Source: Teichococcus aestuarii (GTDB taxonomy: Bacteria > Pseudomonadota > Alphaproteobacteria > Acetobacterales > Acetobacteraceae). Taken from it: a DNA stretch of 64,000 bases. Each line of letters starts with the position of its first letter. The first letter of the stretch is position 1. The DNA is taken from positions 186,001 through 250,000 of the forward strand of contig NZ_PDOA01000001.1 of NCBI RefSeq assembly GCF_003116135.1. Direction: 5' to 3'. The notes beneath the pieces are model-generated. The model was not told where the DNA came from. It saw only the letters and a list, made by a program, of their open reading frames with translations, and did no database searches. Positions 1,172 to 38,799 of the stretch are shown piece by piece. The position numbers were made by a program, and so were the translations under genes.

Positions 1172-1585
1172 ATGAGCAGCTTCCTGCACACCATGATCCG
1201 CGTCGGCAACCTGGAGCGGAGCGTGGATTTCTACACGCGCCTGCTCGGCATGCAGGAGCTGCGCCGCAACGACGTGCCGGACGGCAAGTACACGCTGGTC
1301 TTCGTCGGCTACGCACCGGAGAGCACCGGCGCGGGCGTCATCGAGCTGACCTACAATTACGGCGTGGACAAGTACGAGCTGGGCAACGCCTTCGGCCATC
1401 TTGCCATCGGCGTGCCGGATGTCTATGCCACCTGCGAGAAGCTGCGCGCCGAGGGCGCCAAGATCACGCGCGAGCCGGGGCCTGTGAAGTTCGGCACCAC
1501 CGTGATCGCCTTCGTCGAGGACCCGGACGGGTACAAGATCGAGCTGATCGAGCGCAAGTCGGCGGAAGCCGGGACGCGCGGCTAA
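1172..1585 (+). CDS. gloA: Lactoylglutathione lyase (glyoxalase I)
   Basis: A 137-residue VOC-superfamily enzyme that isomerises the hemithioacetal of methylglyoxal and glutathione to S-lactoylglutathione. It matches the usual GloA length and motifs: [16 protein letters not shown] at the N-terminus with the first metal-ligand histidine, [17 protein letters not shown] with a ligand glutamate, FGHLAIGV with the second histidine, and [11 protein letters not shown] with the final glutamate. These H/E/H/E positions are those expected for a Ni/Zn glyoxalase I. The ATG at 1172 follows GGAAAC and lies 14 bases after lpxI. Glutathione for the reaction could come from gshB at 17.1 kb, although no link is encoded here. 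Confidence 0.95.
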
Positions 1586-1597
1586 CAGGCGTCCCCG

Positions 1598-1620
1598 CCC
1601 GGGGGAGGCTGTCCCCCGGG
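1598..1620. terminator. GC-rich hairpin between convergent genes
   Basis: A perfect inverted repeat, CCCGGGGGA with TCCCCCGGG and a 5-base loop, lies between gloA and the convergent hydrolase gene. There is no T-tract on either side, so termination is inferred from position and from the similar CCGGGGG hairpins found after other genes in the window. Confidence 0.5.
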
Positions 1621-1636
1621 CCCCGGCCGCCGGCCC

Positions 1637-2446
1637 TCAGGCCTCCTCGATCAGCGCGCGCGCCGCGTGGCAGAGCAGGCCGTCCGGCGCGCGCAGCGTC
1701 TCCAGCAGCGTCGCCTCGTCCAGGCCGGGCAGCGGCAGCAGCGGGGCGGCGCAGCCTTCCCGCTGCCGCAGCGCGTGGAAGGCGCGGGACTGCCGCTGCG
1801 CCGCCTCCGGCTCCGCCTCGCCATAGGCCAGCGCGAAGGGCTTGCGCACCACCGGCAGGCGCTGCGGCGAGAGCACCTCCACCTCCAGCGGCGTCAGCCC
1901 CAGCCTCTCCTCCAGTGATTCCAGTTCGTAGAGGCCGGAAAGGCCGAGCCCGGCCTTCACGCGCGGATGGCCGAGCAGCATGGCGGCCAGATGCGCGCCG
2001 GAGTTCCAGCCGCAGAGCAGCACCGGCCCGGTGATGCCGTGCAGCGGCCCCTGCGCCGCCAGCCAGTCGAGCGCGCGGTGACCCTGCCGGACGATGCGCG
2101 TCAGGCTGGCCTCCGGCATCAGGCTGTGGCCGGGCAGGGCGGCCGACCAGCCATGCGCCAGCAGCCCCTGCGCCAGCGCGCCGAAGCCCTGCCGGCCGCC
2201 TTCCCGCCAGCCGCCGCCATGCAGCAGCACCACGCAGGGCGCGGCGGGGTCGATGGCGGGGTAGAGATCCCACCGGCAGGCCTCGGCGGCCGCGTAGGGA
2301 AGGTCCAGCCTGCCGGGCCGGGCGGCCCGCAGCGCCCGCGAATCCTCCGCCCACTGGCCGGCCAGCTCCGCCGCCGAGAGGCCCGGCCCGCCGCGGCGGA
2401 GCACCGTCCGTCCACCCTGCGGCGCGGCCTGCGGAGGCGGGATCAT
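1637..2446 (-). CDS. Alpha/beta-hydrolase fold protein, kynurenine-formamidase-like, catalytic residues degenerate
   Basis: A 269-residue protein with the fold and landmarks of the bacterial kynurenine formamidase/arylformamidase group: LHGGGW at 75-80 (oxyanion-hole loop), a nucleophile-elbow-like segment GWNSGAHLA at 146-154, and SGLYELESL at 170-178. The elbow, however, reads G-W-N-S-G where family members read G-H-S-A-G, so the expected nucleophile position is Asn148. The region that normally supplies the acid has only glutamates (YGEAEPE, 208-214), and the segment usually carrying the catalytic histidine reads LDEATLL. Ser149 might act as a displaced nucleophile, but no histidine is obvious. 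It may be a pseudoenzyme. The ATG at 2446 was chosen because the conserved part starts soon after; the frame stays open further upstream. Confidence 0.75.
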   Translation of the reverse strand: MIPPPQAAPQGGRTVLRRGGPGLSAAELAGQWAEDSRALRAARPGRLDLPYAAAEACRWDLYPAIDPAAPCVVLLHGGGWREGGRQGFGALAQGLLAHGWSAALPGHSLMPEASLTRIVRQGHRALDWLAAQGPLHGITGPVLLCGWNSGAHLAAMLLGHPRVKAGLGLSGLYELESLEERLGLTPLEVEVLSPQRLPVVRKPFALAYGEAEPEAAQRQSRAFHALRQREGCAAPLLPLPGLDEATLLETLRAPDGLLCHAARALIEEA

Positions 2447-2648
2447 CGCCTCGCCCCACCTGGGTGGCGGTCCTTCAAGGGCGCCGTGCAGCGGTGGGGA
2501 TGCGACATGCCGGGACACTCCTTGCTCGGGCCGTCCTGGCCCTTTGCAACCGGCGTGCCGCGCCGGGCGAGGCCGGGGCCGGCGGTCCCCGGGCCTGCCC
2601 GGCGGGTGCGGCGGCCGCCCACCCCTTGTGCAGTTGCGCCGCGGCGGG

Positions 2649-3101
2649 TCAGCCCGGCGGGGAGACGAGCAGCGGTGCCAGCGCCTCGCGCAGGGCCGGC
2701 GGCACCGGCACGGTCTGCCGCTGCGTCGCCGCGTCCACCTGCACATGGATGAAGTGGCCCTCGGCGCAGGCCAGGTCCTCGCCCGGGCGGAACAGCCCGA
2801 TCTCGTAGCGCACCGAACTGCGCCCGACATGCGCGACCCGCAGCCCGCCCGCCAGCACATCCGGGAAATGGGCGGGGCTGTGGAAGCGGCACATCGTCTC
2901 CACCACCACGGCCAGGCTGGAGCCGGGATCGGCCGGGGTGGGCTGCAGGCCGCGCCCGGCCAGGAACAGCGCCACCAGCGTGTCGAAGTAGAAGTAGTAG
3001 GCGGCGTTGTTGATGTGGCCGTAGCTGTCCTGGTCGCCCCAGCGGGTGGGGATGTCCTGGAAGTGCCGGTACTCGGCCCGGCGGGGGATGCTCTTGCTCA
3101 T
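2649..3101 (-). CDS. Acyl-CoA thioesterase, 4HBT hotdog family
   Basis: A 150-residue single hotdog-domain protein. The N-terminal motif WGDQDSYGHINNAAYYFYFD is the characteristic 4-hydroxybenzoyl-CoA thioesterase (YbgC/FadM-like) signature, with the catalytic Asp and the G-H-x-N turn. Family members hydrolyse short to long acyl-CoAs in the cytoplasm; the substrate cannot be told from sequence. The start at 3101 (MSKSIPRRAEYRHF) fits the family N-terminus. It is transcribed away from minC and towards the hydrolase gene 202 bases downstream; that gap is GC-rich and I see no gene in it. Confidence 0.9.
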   Translation of the reverse strand: MSKSIPRRAEYRHFQDIPTRWGDQDSYGHINNAAYYFYFDTLVALFLAGRGLQPTPADPGSSLAVVVETMCRFHSPAHFPDVLAGGLRVAHVGRSSVRYEIGLFRPGEDLACAEGHFIHVQVDAATQRQTVPVPPALREALAPLLVSPPG

Positions 3102-3231
3102 GCGCGGGGCGCGGTCCTTGTCGTGATGCGGGGCTGCGATGCGGGGCTGCAATGCGGGGCGGGCTGTGGCACGCCGCCCACGCCCGGCGGCAAAAATCCG
3201 CGCGGGGGGGCGGGGTTTGCGCGGCCCGGGC

Positions 3232-3260
3232 TTCGCCCTGGCGCGTGGGCCTTGTATAAA
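3232..3260 (+). promoter_or_regulatory. Candidate promoter for minCDE
   Basis: The 269-base gap between the divergent thioesterase and minC genes contains TATAAA at 3255-3260, an AT-rich exception in this GC-rich DNA, with TTCGCC 17 bases upstream at 3232-3237. The -10 resemblance is good and the -35 weak. The position about 110 bases before minC makes it the best promoter candidate for the min operon. Confidence 0.4.
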
Positions 3261-3370
3261 AGAAGAATTCCTGGCGAACAGGGCGCCGATCGGTGGCAAT
3301 ATGCCGCCGCCGGCCCGCCCGGCCTGCCGGAGTCCCGCAACCCGACCAGCCAGGATCGTTTCCGCGCACG

Positions 3371-4123
3371 ATGTCAGCACCCGCCGCCAATCCCCGCCTT
3401 GAGCCATTCCGGCTGCGCGGCGCGAATTTCAATCTGCTGGTGCTCCGGCTGCTCGATCCACGGCACGAGGTGATTGTTCCTGCCCTCGGCGACCAGTTCC
3501 GCCGCGCGCCCGGCTTCCTGCGCTTCGCGCCGCTGGTGATCGGGCTGGACGACCTGGCGGTGGCGCCGCACGAGGTGGATTTCGCCACCCTCGCGGCCGA
3601 GCTGCGCCGCATCGAGATCATGCCCATCGGCACCGTGGGCGGCTCGCCGGAGATGAAGGCCGCAGCCCAGAGCGCCGGCCTGCCGCCGCTGCGTGCCGCC
3701 GGCGCGCAGGAGGAGGTGGCGCTGGCGCCGCCGCCCCCGCCCGCCGCCAGCAGCGAGCCGCCGCCCGCGCCGCCGCTGCCGCCCGGGTCGATGCGCCCCA
3801 CCGTCATCGTCGACCACGCGGTGCGCGCTGGCCAGCGCATCTGGGCCCAGGGTGCCGATCTTATCATCAACGGCACGGTCAATCCGGGCGGCGAGGTGAT
3901 TGCGGACGGCAACCTGCACGTCTATGGCGCCCTCCGGGGCCGGGCCATCGCCGGCGGGGCCGACAACATGGAAGCGCGCGTCTTCGCGTTGAATTTCGAT
4001 CCGGAACTGGTTTCCATCGCCGGCTACTACGCCGTGCGGGAGGGGCTGACGGACGCGCCGATCGGCAAGCCGGCGCAGGTGCGGCTGATCGGCGAGAACA
4101 TGCGGTTTGACCGGCTGGGCTGA
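3371..4123 (+). CDS. minC: Septum site-determining protein MinC
   Basis: A 250-residue MinC, the FtsZ-polymerisation inhibitor recruited to the membrane by MinD. The N-terminal FtsZ-binding domain occupies roughly residues 1-105 (FRLRGANFNLLVLRL onward). A proline/alanine-rich linker covers about 115-140, and the C-terminal beta-helix domain that dimerises and binds MinD follows (VRAGQRIWAQGADLIINGTVNPGGEVIADGNLHVYG, split here as conserved segments at about 150-190). The ATG at 3371 is preferred over an upstream in-frame ATG because the domain begins directly after it. It is followed after 33 bases by minD, and the three min genes form one operon. Confidence 0.95.
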   Translation: MSAPAANPRLEPFRLRGANFNLLVLRLLDPRHEVIVPALGDQFRRAPGFLRFAPLVIGLDDLAVAPHEVDFATLAAELRRIEIMPIGTVGGSPEMKAAAQSAGLPPLRAAGAQEEVALAPPPPPAASSEPPPAPPLPPGSMRPTVIVDHAVRAGQRIWAQGADLIINGTVNPGGEVIADGNLHVYGALRGRAIAGGADNMEARVFALNFDPELVSIAGYYAVREGLTDAPIGKPAQVRLIGENMRFDRLG

Positions 4124-10734: not shown

Positions 10735-12671
10735 CAGAAAGCCTGCCCGATGCCGACATAAAGGCCGAAGGCGGAATCCCCGCTCTCCTTGTTGAGGGGG
10801 ATGGCGATATCGGCGCGCAGCGGACCGATGGCCGTGAGGTAGCGCACGCCCAGGCCGGCGCCGACCTTGAGGTTGCCGAAATCCGGCGTCGGGTCGCGCG
10901 TCACGGAGCCGGCATCGACGAAGGCCGCCATGCCGATCGGGCCGCTGATGCGCTGGCGCAGCTCGACGCTGCCCTCCACCAGCGAGAGGCCGCCCGCCGG
11001 CTCGTCGCTGGCCGTGCGCGGCCCGACGGACTGGTAGGAATAGCCGCGCACCGAGCCGCCGCCACCCGCGTAGAAGCGCTTGTCGGGCGGCACGCCGCCG
11101 AAGGAGGCGCCGACGATGCTGCCCACCACGCCGCGCAGCGCGATGATGCTGCCCTTGTCGCCGCTGACGTCGAAATAGGTGCTGCCCTGGGCGCGCAGCC
11201 GGGTGAAGGCATTGCTCTCGCCCAGCGAATAGATCGGGTTGACCAGCAGCGCGGCACGGATGCCGCGGCTCGGATTCAGCGGGTTGTCCGTGTCGTTCCA
11301 ACGCAGCTGCCCGATCAGGCCGAGCAGCTGGTAGTTCGTCGTCACATTGTCCTGGGTGACGCGGCTGAACTCGATCTGCGGGCCGAAGCCATAGGTCAGG
11401 CGGGGCGAGAACTCCCGCTCCAGCAGCGCGCCGAGGGTGAAGGCGTCGCGGTCATAGGCGTCGGGGCGCTCGCGCAGCGCGGCGATGTCGAAGGTCAGGG
11501 TCTGGTTGCGGCCGGCGAACCAGGGGGTGCGCAGGCTGGCGCCAATCTTGCCGCCCGTGTCGCTGGTGTCGCCCGTGGTGCCGAGGCGGTTGACCTCCGC
11601 CTCCAGCCGCAGCCGCTCGGCGCCGCCGAACAGGTTGCGGTGCTCCCAGTAGGTGCTGAAGGTGGGGCCGTAGCGCGTCTCGTAGGCGGCGCTGAAGCCG
11701 ATGGCGTGCAGGGGCCGCTCGGCCACGGTGAAGGTGAGGGGCAGGTCGCCCGCCTCGTCCAGCCGCTCGCCGGCACGGGCCCGCACGGTGCTGAACACGC
11801 CGAGGCTGAGCAGGTCCCGCCGCTTGTCGTCGATCGCCTTCTGGCTATAGCCCTGGCCCTGCATCGGGGCGACGATGCGGGCGAGCAGGTCGCTGTCGGT
11901 GCGCTCCTCGCCGCTGACGCCGGGCCGGGCGAATTGCGGGCGCGGGCCGGGGGCCACGGTGAAGGTGACCTCCATGCGGTTCGTGTCATGGTCCACCGTC
12001 ACGCGGCGGCGCACGGCGGCGAAGGGATGGCCGGCATTGCGCAGCGCGTCGCGCAGCCGCCCCTCGGCATCCAGCACTGGCTGGGCGCGGGCGGGGTCGC
12101 CCTCCTTCAGGCCAGTCTCCCCGGCATCGGCGATCGAGGCGCCGGCGGGTTCGGCCTGCAGCCGCACGGGCGCCAGGCGGTATTGCGGCCCCGGCTCCAC
12201 CATGACGGAGACCGGCACCGGCTCCGCATTGCCCTCGCGCGCCAGCAGGCGCTCGGCCAGGCCCGGGCTGTCCGGCGCCTGACCGTCGATGGCGATGCGG
12301 GCGCTGCCGCCGTAATAGCCCTCGGAGCGCAGTGCATCGCGCATGTTGTCGGTCTCGGCCAGGGCGCGGCCGATCAGCCCGTAGGCATCCACCGGCGCGC
12401 TCTCGCGCAGCCGCTCCAGCGCGGAGGCATTGCGGATGGCGGTGTCCAGCGCCTCGTCGCCGGTTTCCGGCAGGGCCACGGTATAGGCGAGATTGGCCTC
12501 GTCCTGCGGCACCTCCGGCTGGCTGGCGGCCGGCGTGCCTGCGGCCCCGCTTTCCGCCCCCCGGCTTTCCGGCGCAGGCTGGGCGAAGGCGCGCAGCATG
12601 GCCGTGAGGGGAAGGGCACCCGCGACGGCGGCGGACAGGGCGACAAGGGCAAGTCGGGATTTGAGGCGCAT
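10734..12671 (-). CDS. tamA: Outer-membrane assembly protein TamA (BamA/Omp85 family)
   Basis: A 645-residue Omp85 protein. A signal peptide covers about residues 1-31, with cleavage likely near LRAFAQPAPES. POTRA domains follow to about 270, and then a 16-strand beta-barrel. The barrel shows the Omp85 signatures RFYAGGGGSVRGYSYQSVGP (the VRGY/F motif in the lid-lock loop) and the terminal strand GLYVGIGQAF ending in phenylalanine. TamA works with TamB in outer-membrane biogenesis. The start lies only 25 bases from the divergent M20 gene, and a small palindrome fills that gap. Confidence 0.95.
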   Translation of the reverse strand: MRLKSRLALVALSAAVAGALPLTAMLRAFAQPAPESRGAESGAAGTPAASQPEVPQDEANLAYTVALPETGDEALDTAIRNASALERLRESAPVDAYGLIGRALAETDNMRDALRSEGYYGGSARIAIDGQAPDSPGLAERLLAREGNAEPVPVSVMVEPGPQYRLAPVRLQAEPAGASIADAGETGLKEGDPARAQPVLDAEGRLRDALRNAGHPFAAVRRRVTVDHDTNRMEVTFTVAPGPRPQFARPGVSGEERTDSDLLARIVAPMQGQGYSQKAIDDKRRDLLSLGVFSTVRARAGERLDEAGDLPLTFTVAERPLHAIGFSAAYETRYGPTFSTYWEHRNLFGGAERLRLEAEVNRLGTTGDTSDTGGKIGASLRTPWFAGRNQTLTFDIAALRERPDAYDRDAFTLGALLEREFSPRLTYGFGPQIEFSRVTQDNVTTNYQLLGLIGQLRWNDTDNPLNPSRGIRAALLVNPIYSLGESNAFTRLRAQGSTYFDVSGDKGSIIALRGVVGSIVGASFGGVPPDKRFYAGGGGSVRGYSYQSVGPRTASDEPAGGLSLVEGSVELRQRISGPIGMAAFVDAGSVTRDPTPDFGNLKVGAGLGVRYLTAIGPLRADIAIPLNKESGDSAFGLYVGIGQAF

Positions 12672-31723: not shown

Positions 31724-32209
31724 ATGGCCGAGCCCCGCAAGAAATCGCTGATCTCCCACGGCACCGCCGCGCAGAACCGCAAGGCGCGCTTCGACTACAA
31801 GATCGGCGACACCTACGAGGCCGGGCTGGTGCTGATGGGGCCGGAGGTGAAGTCCCTGCGCGCCGGCCGCGCCGCCATCGCCGAGGCCTGGGCCGGCGAG
31901 CGCGACGGCGAGCTGTGGCTGTTCAACTGCTACATCCCGGAATGGCAGGCGGGCAGCTTCGTCTCGCAGTTCGAGCCGCGCCGGCCGCGCAAGCTGCTGC
32001 TGAAGAAGAAGCAGATCGAGAGCCTGACCGGCGCCGTGGCGCGCGAGGGCGTGACGCTGGTGCCGCTGGAGATCCTGTTCAACGACCGCGGCATCGCCAA
32101 GGTCGTGCTCGGCCTGGGCGAGGGCAAGAACAAGGCCGACAAGCGCCACGCCATCGCCGCGCGCGACTGGCAGCGCGACAAGGCCCGGCTGATGCGCGAC
32201 AAGGGCTGA
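31724..32209 (+). CDS. smpB: SsrA-binding protein SmpB
   Basis: A 161-residue SmpB, which carries tmRNA into stalled ribosomes for trans-translation. The oligonucleotide-binding beta-barrel shows NRKARFDYKIGDTYEAGLVL, GPEVKSLRAGRA and NCYIPEWQ. The basic C-terminal tail (KRHAIAARDWQRDKARLMR) is the one that reads the empty mRNA channel. The ATG at 31724 follows GAGAGAACG. The partner RNA gene ssrA and the adaptor sspB lie about 6 kb downstream in the same window. Confidence 0.97.
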   Translation: MAEPRKKSLISHGTAAQNRKARFDYKIGDTYEAGLVLMGPEVKSLRAGRAAIAEAWAGERDGELWLFNCYIPEWQAGSFVSQFEPRRPRKLLLKKKQIESLTGAVAREGVTLVPLEILFNDRGIAKVVLGLGEGKNKADKRHAIAARDWQRDKARLMRDKG

Positions 32210-32464: not shown

Positions 32465-33889
32465 TCACCCGGCCCCGGCCAGGGTGGCGCCGGGGCTGAC
32501 CATCTCCTCCGGCTTCACCCAGGCGTCGAAATCCTCGGGCTTCACATAGCCGAGCCGCTCGGCGGCGTCGCGCAGCGTCAGGTTCTCGGCCAGCGCCTTC
32601 TTGCCGATCTGCACCGCCTTGTCGTAGCCAATGCGCGGGTTCAGCACCGTCACCAGCATCAGCGACTTCGCCAGGTTCTCGGCGATGCGCGGCCGGTTCG
32701 GCTCCAGCTTTTCCACCATGTTGTGGGCGAAGCTCTCGGCGGCGTCGGCCAGCAGCGTCACGGATTGCAGCGTGGCGTTGATGATGACGGGCTTGAAGAC
32801 GTTCAGCTCCAGGTGGCCCTGCGCGCCGGCTACGGTGATGGCGGTGTGGTTGCCCATCACCTGCGCCGCCACCATGGTCAGCGCCTCCGACTGCGTCGGG
32901 TTGGTCTTGCCCGGCATGATGGAGGAGGACAGCCCGTCCGCCGGCACGACCAGCTCGGAGAAGCCGGAGCGCGGCCCGCTGCCCAGCAGGCGGATGTCGT
33001 TGCCGATCTTGGTGAGCGACACGGCCAGGGTGTTCAGCACCCCCGACAGCTCGACGAAGGAATCCTCCGCCCCCATCCCCTCGAACTTGTTGGGGTTGGG
33101 CTGGAAGTCGAGCCCGGTGAGCGCGCGCACCCGCTCGCAGAAGGCGGTGTCGAAGTCAGGATGGCGGTTGAGGCCGGTACCGACGGCGGTGCCGCCCTGC
33201 GGCAGCAGGCGCAGCCGGGGCAGGGCGCCGCGCAGCCGGTCCTGGCCATGCGCCACCTGCGCGGCCCAGGCGGCGAATTCCTGGCCCAGCGTCACCGGCA
33301 CCGCGTCCATCAGGTGGGTGCGGCCGACCTTGACGATGTCGCCCCATTCCGCCGCCCGCTTCTCCAGCGCCGCCCGCAGCACGCCGAGCGCCGGGATCAG
33401 CCGCTGCTCCACCGCCTCGGTGGCGGCGATGTGCATCATGGTGGGGAAGCTGTCGTTGGAGGACTGGCCGCGGTTGACGTGGTCATTGGGATGCACCGGC
33501 TTGCGGGTGCCGAGGGGCTGCCCCAGCATCTCGTTGGCGCGGTTCGAGATGACCTCGTTGGCGTTCATGTTGGTCTGGGTGCCGGAGCCGGTCTGCCAGA
33601 CGGGAAGGGGGAAGTCGGCATCGCGCTCGCCCGCGGCGATCTCGGCGGCGGCGGCGATGATGGGGTCGGCGATCTCGGCCGGCAATTCGCCCAACGCCTT
33701 GTTGGCCTCGGCGGCGGCCTGCTTCTGCAGGCCCACGGCGCGGATCAGGATGCGCGGGAAGCGCTCCGTGCCGATCCGGAACAGGCGGCGGGCCCGCTCG
33801 GTCTGCGGGCCCCAGTAGCGGGCAGCCTCGATCTCGATGGTGCCGAGGCTGTCCGTCTCGGTGCGGGTCTCTGCGTGCGTCTCGGGCAT
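32465..33889 (-). CDS. fumC: Fumarate hydratase class II
   Basis: A 474-residue iron-independent fumarase of the aspartase/fumarase superfamily, forming malate from fumarate as a homotetramer. Signature SSSIMPGKTNPTQSEAL is present, with GSGTQTNMNANEVISNRA, the catalytic-histidine region HPNDHVNRGQSSND and VGRTHLMDAVP. The ATG at 33889 has AAGGGA upstream. A short, acidic, Thr/Glu-rich N-terminal extension precedes the conserved core. A second, unrelated class I fumarase gene lies 1.7 kb away. Confidence 0.97.
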   Translation of the reverse strand: MPETHAETRTETDSLGTIEIEAARYWGPQTERARRLFRIGTERFPRILIRAVGLQKQAAAEANKALGELPAEIADPIIAAAAEIAAGERDADFPLPVWQTGSGTQTNMNANEVISNRANEMLGQPLGTRKPVHPNDHVNRGQSSNDSFPTMMHIAATEAVEQRLIPALGVLRAALEKRAAEWGDIVKVGRTHLMDAVPVTLGQEFAAWAAQVAHGQDRLRGALPRLRLLPQGGTAVGTGLNRHPDFDTAFCERVRALTGLDFQPNPNKFEGMGAEDSFVELSGVLNTLAVSLTKIGNDIRLLGSGPRSGFSELVVPADGLSSSIMPGKTNPTQSEALTMVAAQVMGNHTAITVAGAQGHLELNVFKPVIINATLQSVTLLADAAESFAHNMVEKLEPNRPRIAENLAKSLMLVTVLNPRIGYDKAVQIGKKALAENLTLRDAAERLGYVKPEDFDAWVKPEEMVSPGATLAGAG

Positions 33890-33986
33890 GGGATGTCCCT
33901 TCCTGCGGTCCGGTTCAGGTAGGGAGCGAAGCAGACCCCGCACAGGTTGCCACGCCGCCGGATATGCCCCGCGGCGCGGTCACGGC

Positions 33987-35564: not shown

Positions 35565-37277
35565 TTACTCCAGCCCGTCGTAGAAGTCGTTGCCCTTGTC
35601 GTCCACCACGATGAAGGCGGGGAAGTCCTCCACCTCAATGCGCCAGACGGCTTCCATGCCGAGCTCCGGGTATTCCAGCACCTCGACCTTGCGGATGCAG
35701 TCCTGCGCCAGCCGCGCCGCCGGGCCGCCGACCGAGCCGAGATAGAAGCCGCCATGCGCCTTGCAGGCGTTGGTGACGGCCTTGGAGCGGTTGCCCTTGG
35801 CAAGCATCACCAGGCTGCCGCCGGCGGCCTGGAAGGCGGCCACGTAGCTGTCCATGCGGCCCGCCGTGGTGGGGCCGAAGGAGCCCGTGGGCAGGCCCTC
35901 GGGGGTCTTGGCCGGGCCGGCGTAGTAGACCGGGTGGTCCTTCAGGTATTGCGGCAGGCCCTCGCCACGGTCGAGCCGCTCCTGCAGCTTGGCGTGGGCG
36001 ATGTCGCGCGCCACGACGATGGTGCCGGTGAGCGAGACGCGGGTCTTCACGGGATGCTTCGACAGCTCGGCGCGGATCTCGTCCATCGGCCGGTTGAGGT
36101 CGAGCTTCACCACCTCGCCACCCAGGATCTCGTCCGTGGTCTCGGGCAGGAAGCGGGCCGGGTCGTGCTCCAGCGCCTCCAGGAACACGCCCTCGGGCGT
36201 GATCTTGGCCTTGATCTGCCGGTCGGCCGAGCAGGAGACGCCGATGCCGATGGGCAGGGAGGCGCCGTGGCGGGGCAGGCGGATGACGCGCACGTCGTGG
36301 CAGAAATACTTGCCGCCGAACTGCGCGCCGATGCCCAGATTCTGCGTCAGCTTGTGGACTTCCTGCTCCAGCTCGCGGTCGCGCAGGCCATGGCCGGACC
36401 TGTCGCCGGTGGCGGGCAGCTCGTCGAGGTAGCGGGTGGAGGCCAGCTTCACCGTCTTGAGCGTCGTCTCGGCCGAGGTGCCGCCGATGACGATGGCCAG
36501 GTGGTAGGGCGGGCAGGCGGAGGTGCCCAGCGTCTTGATCTTCTCCTCCAGGAAGGCCAGCAGCTTCGGCTTGTTCAGCACGGCGCGGGTCTGCTGGAAG
36601 AGGAAGGTCTTGTTGGCCGAGCCGCCGCCCTTGAGCACGAACATCATGTGGAACTCGTCCGCATGGTGGTCGCCGGGGGAGGCGTAGATGTCGAACTGCA
36701 CGGGGAGGTTGTTGCCGGTGTTCACCTCCTCGAACATCGAGAGCGGCGCCATCTGCGAGTAGCGCAGGTTCGTCTCGGTGTAGGTGCGGTGCACGCCGTA
36801 GGAGAGCGCCTCCTCCTCATCCCCCTCGACCCAGACGCGCTGGCCCTTCTTGCCGAAGACGATGGCGGTGCCGGTGTCCTGGCACATGGGCAGCACGCCG
36901 CCGGCCGAGATGGAGGCGTTCTTCAGCAGGTCGAGCGCCACGAAGCGGTCATTGGCGCTGGCCTCGGGGTCCTTCAGGATCTTGGCCAGCTGCTCCAGAT
37001 GGCCGGGGCGGAGGAAGTGGGACACCTCCTTGCACGCCGTGAAGGCCAGCTGCTCCAGCGCCCCGGGCGAGACCTTGAGGACCTTCTTGCCCTCGACCTC
37101 GATGACCTTCACCCCCTCGATCGGCAGCTTGCGGTAGGTGGTGCGGTCCTCGCCCAGCGGCAGCATGGGGGAGTACTGGAAGCCCTTGCTGCGCTGGGAA
37201 ACCGGGGTGCCCGCGTCGGTGTCGTTCAGCGGGGTATCGGCCAGAGGGGCGGCGGGGGGAATGTTGTCAGGGGTCAT
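35565..37277 (-). CDS. fumA: Fumarate hydratase class I, iron-sulfur
   Basis: A 570-residue fused class I fumarase that hydrates fumarate using an oxygen-sensitive [4Fe-4S] cluster. The three cluster cysteines are in place: Cys132 ([11 protein letters not shown]), Cys255 ([15 protein letters not shown]) and Cys349 (GVSCSADRQ). The N-terminal alpha-like domain covers about 40-370, and the beta-like domain about 380-570 ([26 protein letters not shown]). The first 30 residues are a weakly conserved lead. It is first in a four-gene unit with DUF1272, RidA and VOC genes. Symbol fumA is used by class; closer orthology to E. coli FumA or FumB is not claimed. Confidence 0.94.
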
Positions 37278-37442: not shown

Positions 37443-37976
37443 TCAATCCCGGGTCGGGCGGCGGCGGAAGGCGTCGAGGCTCACCACCTGGGCGGGGCCT
37501 TCCGGCTCGGCCGGGGCAGGGGCCTCGGCCTCCGGCTGCTCCGCCATCGGAGAGGGCGCGACCTCGGCCCCGGCAGGCGCCGCCGCCTCAGCGGCCTCGG
37601 CCGAGGGAAAGCGCAGCCCCACCCGCACATGCGGGTCCCAGAAGGCGGTCAGGGCGGAGATCGGGATCACCAGCGTCGCCGGCACCCCGCCGAAGGACAG
37701 GCCGGCCGTGACGAAGCCCTGCTCCCGGTCGACCTTCAGGTCCCAGAACTGGTGCTGGAGGACGATGGTCATCTCCTCCGGGTAGCGGGCCTTGAGGTGA
37801 CCGGGAATGGCGACGCCAGGCCGGTCGGTGCGGAAGGTGAGGTAGAAGTGGTGCTCACCGGGCAGGCCGTGCTCGCCCGCATGTTCCAGGGCGCGCAGCG
37901 CGACCTCGCGCATGGCGTCCTCGGTCCAGCGATCGTAAGGCAGCAGGCTTTCCGCCTGCCTGGTCTCATCCGTCAT
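37443..37976 (-). CDS. sspB: ClpXP adaptor protein SspB, alpha type
   Basis: A 177-residue SspB that tethers ssrA-tagged proteins to ClpXP. The substrate-binding fold covers about 10-130 (PYDRWTEDAMREVALRAL; HHFYLTFRTDRPGV; QHQFWDLKV; FGGVPATLVIPISALTAFWDP). A disordered Ala/Glu/Pro-rich linker follows. The C-terminal ClpX-binding (XB) peptide is recognisable as VVSLDAFRRRP. It is in the same orientation as, and about 85 bases downstream of, the ssrA gene whose tag it would recognise. The start at 37976 fits the conserved N-terminus. Confidence 0.94.
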   Translation of the reverse strand: MTDETRQAESLLPYDRWTEDAMREVALRALEHAGEHGLPGEHHFYLTFRTDRPGVAIPGHLKARYPEEMTIVLQHQFWDLKVDREQGFVTAGLSFGGVPATLVIPISALTAFWDPHVRVGLRFPSAEAAEAAAPAGAEVAPSPMAEQPEAEAPAPAEPEGPAQVVSLDAFRRRPTRD

Positions 37977-38061: not shown

Positions 38062-38372
38062 GGACGGGAGCGGCAAATCAGTGGGGGGATTCTGTTGCCC
38101 GGTTCCCCCCGGACCGCGCTTACCTATTGTTAGGCAGCGAGCGCCATGGTCTCGCGACCATTATCGTTGGCACTTGTGATTTAGCCCGATAACGGCGGTA
38201 CAATGCCGGGCAAAAGACATGGCTTTACCACGCGCGTCGAGCCTGTTTCGTCCCCAGAAGCCCGCCAGACGATCCCTGGCGGCGATGCTGGTGGAGACGC
38301 CGGGCACTGCCCCCGGGTCCGCAACGCTTATTCCACATGCCGTTTATCGCCATAGTCCCCGAGGGGACGACG
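38062..38372 (-). ncRNA. ssrA: tmRNA gene, circularly permuted two-piece form
   Basis: On the minus strand the acceptor piece comes first (about 38372 to 38289) and ends in a CCA that is encoded. It contains a T-arm-like CCGGG-7-CCCGG and CGTCTCC before ACCA. A 33-base spacer follows, then the coding piece starting GGGGACGAAA at 38255. GGGGACG pairs with CGTCTCC over seven base pairs (one G-U), rebuilding the tRNA-like acceptor stem across the two pieces. GGCTCGACG after it matches the conserved tmRNA 5' domain. The tag frame runs 38171-38130. An H-type pseudoknot follows: GGGGGG/CCCCCC (38110-38105 with 38088-38083) interleaved with GGCAA/TTGCC (38099-38095 with 38076-38072). Outer ends are estimates. 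A TATATC at 38380-38375 is a possible -10 element. Confidence 0.93.
38130..38171 (-). other. tmRNA tag reading frame
   Basis: The resume codon GCC at 38171 opens a frame encoding ANDNGRETMALAA and then TAA. With the alanine carried by tmRNA, rescued proteins would end in A plus this peptide. The N-terminal AANDN part matches what alpha-type SspB recognises, and the terminal ALAA matches ClpX/ClpA recognition. Confidence 0.93.
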
Positions 38373-38799
38373 ACGATATAGGCCGCCCCGCGGCGGAAAT
38401 CGAGGGGGCGCTTCCGGAAAAGCGCCGCGCCCGCCCGCCCCACATCTCTGGCTTGTACACCTCTGGCGTGCCGGAGGCGGCCGGCCCCGGCCGTGCTGGA
38501 ACTCTGCCGACCGGACCGCCCGCGTGGGGCGGGCCTCCGGTGTCATGAGCGGGTGAGCCCGGACCAGGACACGGCAGGCCGGGCGATCAACATGCCGTGA
38601 AGGTCGTGCACTTCCGCATGTGTGCCGCGCACCGGGCCCCGCAGATCGGCGCTGGTGGGATGGCCCCCTTTTGGCTAGACCCTGCGCGACCCGGAGCCCG
38701 GGGCCACCGCCCCGAGCCTCACTGCCTTTCGCGCCTTCTCCGGTTCCGCCTTCCGGCTTTCCGGCCGTGGCGGCTTCCGCACGCCCAGGATCTGAACCC
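38373..38799. other. Gap between ssrA and thyX promoter regions
   Basis: About 430 bases between divergent ssrA and thyX. It should hold both promoters. I see a TATATC on the minus strand next to ssrA and a GGCGCTT/AAGCGCC hairpin at about 38408-38427, but no convincing gene. Frames that stay open here lack family similarity and run antisense to the tmRNA or into thyX. Confidence 0.6.

Follow-up and report, generated by a model that had tools for sequence, protein, structure and literature searches.

The window analysed here, the whole stretch of 64,000 nucleotides, carries on its minus strand at about 38368–38080 a circularly permuted two-piece tmRNA gene (ssrA) of the alphaproteobacterial kind, identified by both the Rfam model RF01849 (alpha_tmRNA) and ARAGORN. 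An earlier note on this DNA had proposed such a gene and suggested a covariance-model search; this returned an overwhelming match to RF01849 of 240.1 bits against a gathering threshold of 50 (E 1.9e-68), covering positions 1–355 of the 355 in the model, and ARAGORN agrees, calling one tmRNA in the window, on the minus strand at 38383–38039, with the tag ANDNGRETMALAA. A further match at this locus, to RF04321 (tmRNA_permuted), scored 141.9 bits, and these are the only two Rfam matches over gathering in the whole window. The limits of the gene vary with the source: Rfam gives 38407–38080, conserved leader included, ARAGORN the coordinates above, and the earlier note 38372–38062. All elements described in that note sit on the minus strand, which its claim did not name.

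Parts of the tmRNA gene and its neighbours

A likely −10 element, TATATC (38375–38380, minus strand), precedes the acceptor piece; an alignment of 36 tmRNAs shows a conserved block resembling CTATAT, which suggests the promoter role. According to the RF01849 alignment and the sequence itself, the acceptor piece, the tRNA-like 3' half with its encoded CCA, comes first in the gene as the earlier note had held (38289–38368, the 5' end being approximate), and is followed by a linker of 33 nt (38256–38288), which should be absent from the mature two-piece RNA, and by the coding piece (38080–38255). The acceptor stem described in that note is present: CGTCTCC at 38299–38293, followed by the discriminator A at 38292 and CCA at 38291–38289, pairs with GGGGACG at the start of the coding piece (38255–38249) in seven base pairs, including a G-U third pair that we take to be the alanine mark. 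The mature pieces are likely about 80 nt (to 38289) and 174–176 nt (from 38255) long once the linker is excised, these ends being predicted ones. The 13-codon tag frame already noticed is recovered at 38171–38130, where ARAGORN and the relatives give ANDNGRETMALAA plus TAA with the resume codon GCC. The H-type pseudoknot downstream of the tag is also borne out (38116–38083), with crossing stems of four (CGGT/ACCG) and seven (GGGGGGA/TCCCCCC) standard pairs; a single-strand fold, which cannot draw pseudoknots, gives the second stem only, with no excess stability (z 0.06). Three things go beyond the earlier note, namely a hairpin inside the tag frame, the adjoining sspB and smpB genes, and a possible hairpin in the linker. 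The last has 8 bp (38282–38262; z −2.0 alone, −2.9 with flanks), and a conserved structure in the linker was rejected, as its length and sequence vary among relatives although the hairpin can form.

For comparison, an SspB protein scan yielded 403 confirmed relatives, of which the best 80, headed by Pseudoroseomonas and Roseomonas, were taken as the named loci and are therefore a sample of near kin; the nearest row on the protein tree is Roseomonas sp. KE0001 (L005), with 89% identity. ARAGORN found a tmRNA upstream of sspB on the same strand in 72 of the 80, that of L039 was found by Rfam, and that of L031 is split. The fetched stretches of L026 and L048 reach only 125 and 349 nt upstream of sspB, and no tmRNA was found in those of L027, L067, L069 and L079; each of these six genomes has one tmRNA match elsewhere in its assembly.

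The structure was assessed in an alignment of the window's tmRNA with 35 of the 72 that ARAGORN found in the named loci (36 of 73 tmRNAs). Over the permuted-tmRNA structure and pseudoknot, the paired fraction is 95.3% (of 1652 cells), and changes on both sides occur at 20 of the 46 pairs, compared with a shuffled mean of 13.8 and none of 500 shuffles as high; the pairing fraction and covariation score were likewise reached by none of 500. The number of further pair types is less telling (49 against 44.8, with 27 of 500 shuffles as high), and sliding the structure by 1–3 columns lowers pairing to 39–57%. The acceptor stem is paired in all 36 sequences, with one variable pair that changes from C-G to U-A in 13 of them. 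Stem 1 of the pseudoknot pairs in 100% of cells, with two of its four pairs changed on both sides (in 9 and 8 sequences), and stem 2 in 99.6%, with one of seven so changed (15 sequences). In the upstream hairpin, helices 1 and 2 pair in 79.6 and 61.8% of cells; the loop varies in length and aligns badly. Chance pairing as the origin of the tmRNA structure is rejected by this covariation together with the ARAGORN call and the RF01849 match.

Downstream on the same strand lies sspB (37443–37976; PF04386, E 1.2e-42), whose product is expected to bring tagged proteins to ClpXP; its Pfam domain begins 152 nt past the RF01849 match. The gene smpB, for the protein partner of tmRNA, is on the plus strand at 31724–32209 (PF01668, E 1.2e-49 in the window), is preceded by a dapA-like gene, and is the single SmpB match in the genome (E 4.0e-49 there), so that ssrA, smpB and sspB all fall within 6.7 kb. 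Two unrelated fumarases, of the FumC and the Fumerase-domain type, are also found near sspB on the minus strand (32465–33943 and 35565–37277). The genes for the tag and for its adaptor are often neighbours in this class. Among 58 genomes searched, 54 have both (one has tmRNA only, one SspB only and two neither), and in 47 of these 54, sspB lies 3' of ssrA on the same strand and within 3 kb: 16/16 of the same genus, 14/17 of the same family and 17/21 of other families, three genomes with the two genes on different contigs being counted as not near. The SspB domain is within 300 nt of the RF01849 match in 16/16 (own genome included), 7/17 and 14/21, respectively. One genome of the same genus (G002; L188, L213) has two equally scoring tmRNA genes, both with an sspB of their own close by; the genes may be duplicated, or the assembly (6.1 Mb, with 5% contamination) may be redundant.

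The assembly to which the window belongs is 5.2 Mb long and 99.95% complete and contains a single tmRNA match, and a second tmRNA in the genome is thereby rejected. It is exceedingly improbable that the locus is a relic or decoy while another tmRNA works in the cell: nothing was found in support of that reading, and it is opposed by the single match in so complete a genome and by the conservation of structure, tag and neighbours. As a gene, this ssrA is ordinary, a typical representative of an established kind. A permuted tmRNA in Caulobacter crescentus was reportedly described by Keiler et al. in 2000. The gene resembles that tmRNA and RF01849 in its permuted order, two-piece acceptor stem, encoded CCA, resume codon, tag ending in LAA, and pseudoknot after the tag; it differs in its tag and in the hairpin within the tag frame, a segment for which the Rfam model has no pairs. 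That permuted ssrA is an alphaproteobacterial trait, as the earlier note stated with reference to Caulobacter, is correct and already known from the available part of PMC11915505, which puts the number of unique permuted tmRNA sequences at 11,946 and refers to Keiler et al. 2000 for Caulobacter. The same note's description of the tag as previously unlabelled stands in part. A literature search for the strings ANDNGRETMALAA and ANDNSREAVALAA gave no match; on the other hand, ANDNGRETMALAA is present in 8 of the 80 named loci (L005, L006, L007, L009, L010, L012, L016 and L018), and ARAGORN and Rfam call the gene automatically.

A hairpin within the tag reading frame

Codons 4–9 of the tag frame, AAT GGT CGC GAG ACC ATG, can fold as ATGGTC-GCGA-GACCAT (38161–38146, minus strand), a perfect stem of 6 bp closed by a GNRA loop. 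Its occurrence was surveyed in 205 loci, drawn in part from 60 extra genomes (59 searched) of genera thought to be Roseomonas-like, picked to enrich for the tag pattern. Ten loci lack an ARAGORN tmRNA (among them L039, with its tmRNA found by Rfam), and the remaining 195 gave 164 distinct sequences, 64 of which fit the 13-residue pattern ANDN-x-R-E-x-x-ALAA; L031 was omitted here for its split gene. A broken tmRNA in L242 (model 40–244) was rejected, the match being cut by the end of the locus. In L076 and L095 the long tags called by ARAGORN possibly begin at the wrong codon. That of L076 (4512–4872, Acidisoma sp. L85) has 23 residues with a second ANDN inside (ANGN...GANDNDARVAVAA) and is a tag in tandem or else has its resume codon misplaced.

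All six pairs are Watson-Crick in 62 of the 64 distinct tmRNAs, through five stem versions: ACAGCC in 40 (loop GCGA in 36 and GTGA in 4, both GNRA), ATGGTC in 12, ACGGTC in 8, and ACGTTC and ACGTCC in one each. In the other two (tag ANDNSREAYALAA, stem ATAGCC) the outer two pairs are lost and the inner four kept. Thus 380 of 384 pair cells are Watson-Crick, and the 62 perfect stems contain no G-U pair and no one-sided change. Over the 64, pair 1 is A-T in 62 and broken in two; pair 2 is C-G in 50, T-A in 12 and broken in two; pair 3 is A-T in 42 and G-C in 22; pair 4 is G-C in 62 and T-A in two; pair 5 is C-G in 43 and T-A in 21; and pair 6 is always C-G. These paired changes determine residues 5, 8 and 9 of the tag. 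Among the 100 other distinct tags, 99 have at most five consecutive Watson-Crick pairs within the frame, so the hairpin is not essential to tmRNA in general; the exception is L095, with eight pairs in a doubtful 25-residue call.

The hairpin could be a by-product, without a role, of the amino acids the tag needs and of codon bias. The ends ANDN and ALAA are common to nearly all tags seen, GC-rich codons pair easily, and two of the 64 tmRNAs live with four pairs. For each variant, the chance of forming six pairs was computed from its peptide and from the codon usage of seven window genes. It is 0.22 for VREDV, which can thus have them from codon usage alone, and only 0.0018 for GRETM (the window), 0.0035 for SREAV, 0.015 for GRETV and 0.019 for VRENV; with uniform codons the chances are 0.007–0.021; the rows are related, so these chances are not multiplied. 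Rare codons are used in the stem as well: judged by the same seven genes, the window's tag has AAT (5 against 59 AAC) and GGT (6 against 154 GGC), and the SREA tag has GCT (5 against 193 GCC). Together with the exclusively two-sided changes at pairs 2–5, all of them variable among the 62 perfect stems, and the absence of such a stem from 99 of 100 other tags, this makes a by-product unlikely. By predicted energy the hairpin is of modest stability, at −8.4 kcal/mol (z −2.6 for 24 nt, and −1.4 over the whole tag frame). From the pattern of base changes, we infer dual coding in the tag middle, of a peptide and of an RNA hairpin.

The literature search for a covarying hairpin within a tmRNA tag found none among the matches listed, nor in the available part of PMC1168896. 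In that part, the tag reading frame of standard tmRNA precedes helix 5, whose loop holds the stop codon and whose compensatory support is weak, and a helix m by the E. coli resume codon is proposed from energy alone. The present hairpin resembles helix 5, as described there, in lying close to the tag, and differs in being wholly within codons 4–9 with strong compensatory support; it does not match helix 5 in place, since its last base, 38146, lies 13 nt ahead of the stop codon (38132–38130). As with helix 5, a small stem, CCTR...YAGG, lies by the stop codon here too, and its variable pair is A-T in 57, G-C in two and A-C in two of the 61 tmRNAs that fit this layout. In L015 and L029, TGA replaces TAA/TAG as the stop, with C for T at the partner position, and three of the 64, also with TGA, fall outside the layout. 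The tag stop codon may be paired in this small stem.

In E. coli the ANDN end of the tag is read by SspB and the ALAA end by ClpX. In the working proposed here, one precursor would be transcribed and tRNA-processing enzymes, as known for Caulobacter, would cut out the 33-nt linker. The two products, the acceptor RNA (about 80 nt) and the coding RNA (about 175 nt), should by analogy with Caulobacter be joined by the acceptor stem and long-range helices. Charged with alanine and carried by SmpB, the tmRNA would enter ribosomes stalled on broken mRNA, translation would resume at GCC 38171 and append (A)ANDNGRETMALAA, and SspB and ClpXP, to judge from their families, would destroy the tagged protein. 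The hairpin-dictated residues sit between ANDN and ALAA, and the variable tag middle (residues 5, 8 and 9), expected to lie between the ends read by SspB and ClpX, would also encode the 6-bp GNRA hairpin. Beginning at the 11th nucleotide of the tag frame, the hairpin would be reached by the ribosome soon after tag translation begins and would need unwinding; before loading, it may guard the tag codons against mispairing. Selection to keep it would restrict codons and couple residues, such that the tag changes by compensatory, mostly block-wise base changes.

Taken as a whole, we consider it very probable that this is the sole ssrA of the genome, permuted and in two pieces, with a tagging role and a selected tag hairpin. 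RNA pairing would then explain the variable tag-middle residues in this group and offer a testable case of overlapping coding of RNA structure and peptide; it also counsels caution, as tag differences from strain to strain need not reflect selection on proteolysis.

Switching of stem versions among relatives

The stem versions were followed on the SspB+fumarase+ThyX tree, a quick tree of 43 rows in which 17 of the 40 inner branches are starred and 9 are open. Its 37 stem-bearing rows, one of which is the joined exons of L031, require at least 11 stem-state changes, with pairs 3 and 5 switching together at least nine times, pair 2 at least seven times and pair 4 once, minimum counts that uncertain branches could lower.

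L013 and L018 are close sisters on this tree. Their acceptor pieces (81 nt) are identical, and their coding pieces (174 nt) differ at six positions, all in the stem and amounting to three compensatory pair changes. Their flanks and sspB are 95–98% identical and their long linkers nearly the same, so the gene seems to have been inherited in place while the tag changed. The same six stem differences separate the window from its congener G005 (L107, tag ANDNSREAVALAA), in which the mature pieces show one difference outside the stem; the sspB genes of this pair are 84% identical, and further differences lie in the leader and trailer. Of 698 compared pairs, 97 are close (at most 9 differences outside the stem), and among them the stem differs at no position in 70, at six in 24, at two in two and at four in one; members and history are shared, so neither the 97 pairs nor the 64 rows are independent.

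Two courses could have produced this pattern. The GRET and SREA alleles may have arisen repeatedly by stepwise compensatory mutation, a course we hold possible if not probable: pairs 2, 3 and 5 change by transitions only, which could pass through G-U pairs, other forms (GRETV, VREN, VRED) exist, and of the 27 close pairs whose stems differ, three do so at only two or four positions. It is opposed by the mature tmRNAs of L013 and L018, identical over 255 nt save for exactly six bases of the stem (with random placement, the chance is 2.6e-9), and by the absence among the 64 of GREA and SRET forms and of G-U stems. Short-tract exchange is favoured because these half-way forms are lacking, and we infer from the sequence comparisons that the stem mostly switches as a block by such recombination, for which no donor was identified. 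With belief and doubt about evenly balanced, we take the Roseomonas-type tag to be dual-coded, its hairpin under selection, and to exist as a few alleles (GRET, SREA, VREN, VRED) that are mostly replaced as blocks between lineages by short-tract recombination. If this allele reading is true, tag peptides evolve by allele switching that preserves RNA pairs and not by single point mutations. The tmRNA gene itself is expected in an alphaproteobacterium; the tag hairpin and its block switching may not be known to a specialist.

A group II intron in the tmRNA gene of Paeniroseomonas aquatica

In the split gene of L031 (Paeniroseomonas aquatica CECT 7131, NZ_JAUFPN010000194.1), the RF01849 match is divided in two, with a group II intron domain between the parts; no other tmRNA match was found in that genome. 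The insert (1285–3843, 2,559 nt, GTGCG...AT) lies between the tRNA-like part and the tag and encodes a protein of 627 residues with reverse transcriptase, maturase and HNH domains. An EBS-IBS pairing search found nothing convincing for this intron. The group I introns in tmRNA genes treated in the available part of PMC11915505 are comparable, in that L031 too has an intron of self-splicing type inside ssrA; the L031 intron differs in being of group II, with its own reverse transcriptase, and in interrupting a permuted gene. The term "group II" does not occur in the available main text of that paper, and a literature search for a group II intron in a bacterial tmRNA gene gave none among the matches listed. 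Should the L031 intron splice, it would be a second intron type in a tmRNA gene and would make ribosome rescue unusually dependent on splicing.

Among 397 genomes of the family, one matches at the same insertion site, and it is identical to L031 in contig number, positions and letters and hence taken as the same species. Pattern matches across the class (4 of 289 genomes, against 1 of 289 for a reversed control pattern) support no second case: L153 and L154 are intact tmRNAs, L155 lies inside a full-length RF01849 match of G041, and L156, where Rfam has nothing over gathering and ARAGORN calls no tmRNA, may have matched by chance. Searched with 1293–3845, the L031 intron is single-copy in its own genome, the second match being a 38-nt fragment. 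When the exons are joined, the alignment runs through the junction without a gap and the tag is ANDNSREAVALAA.
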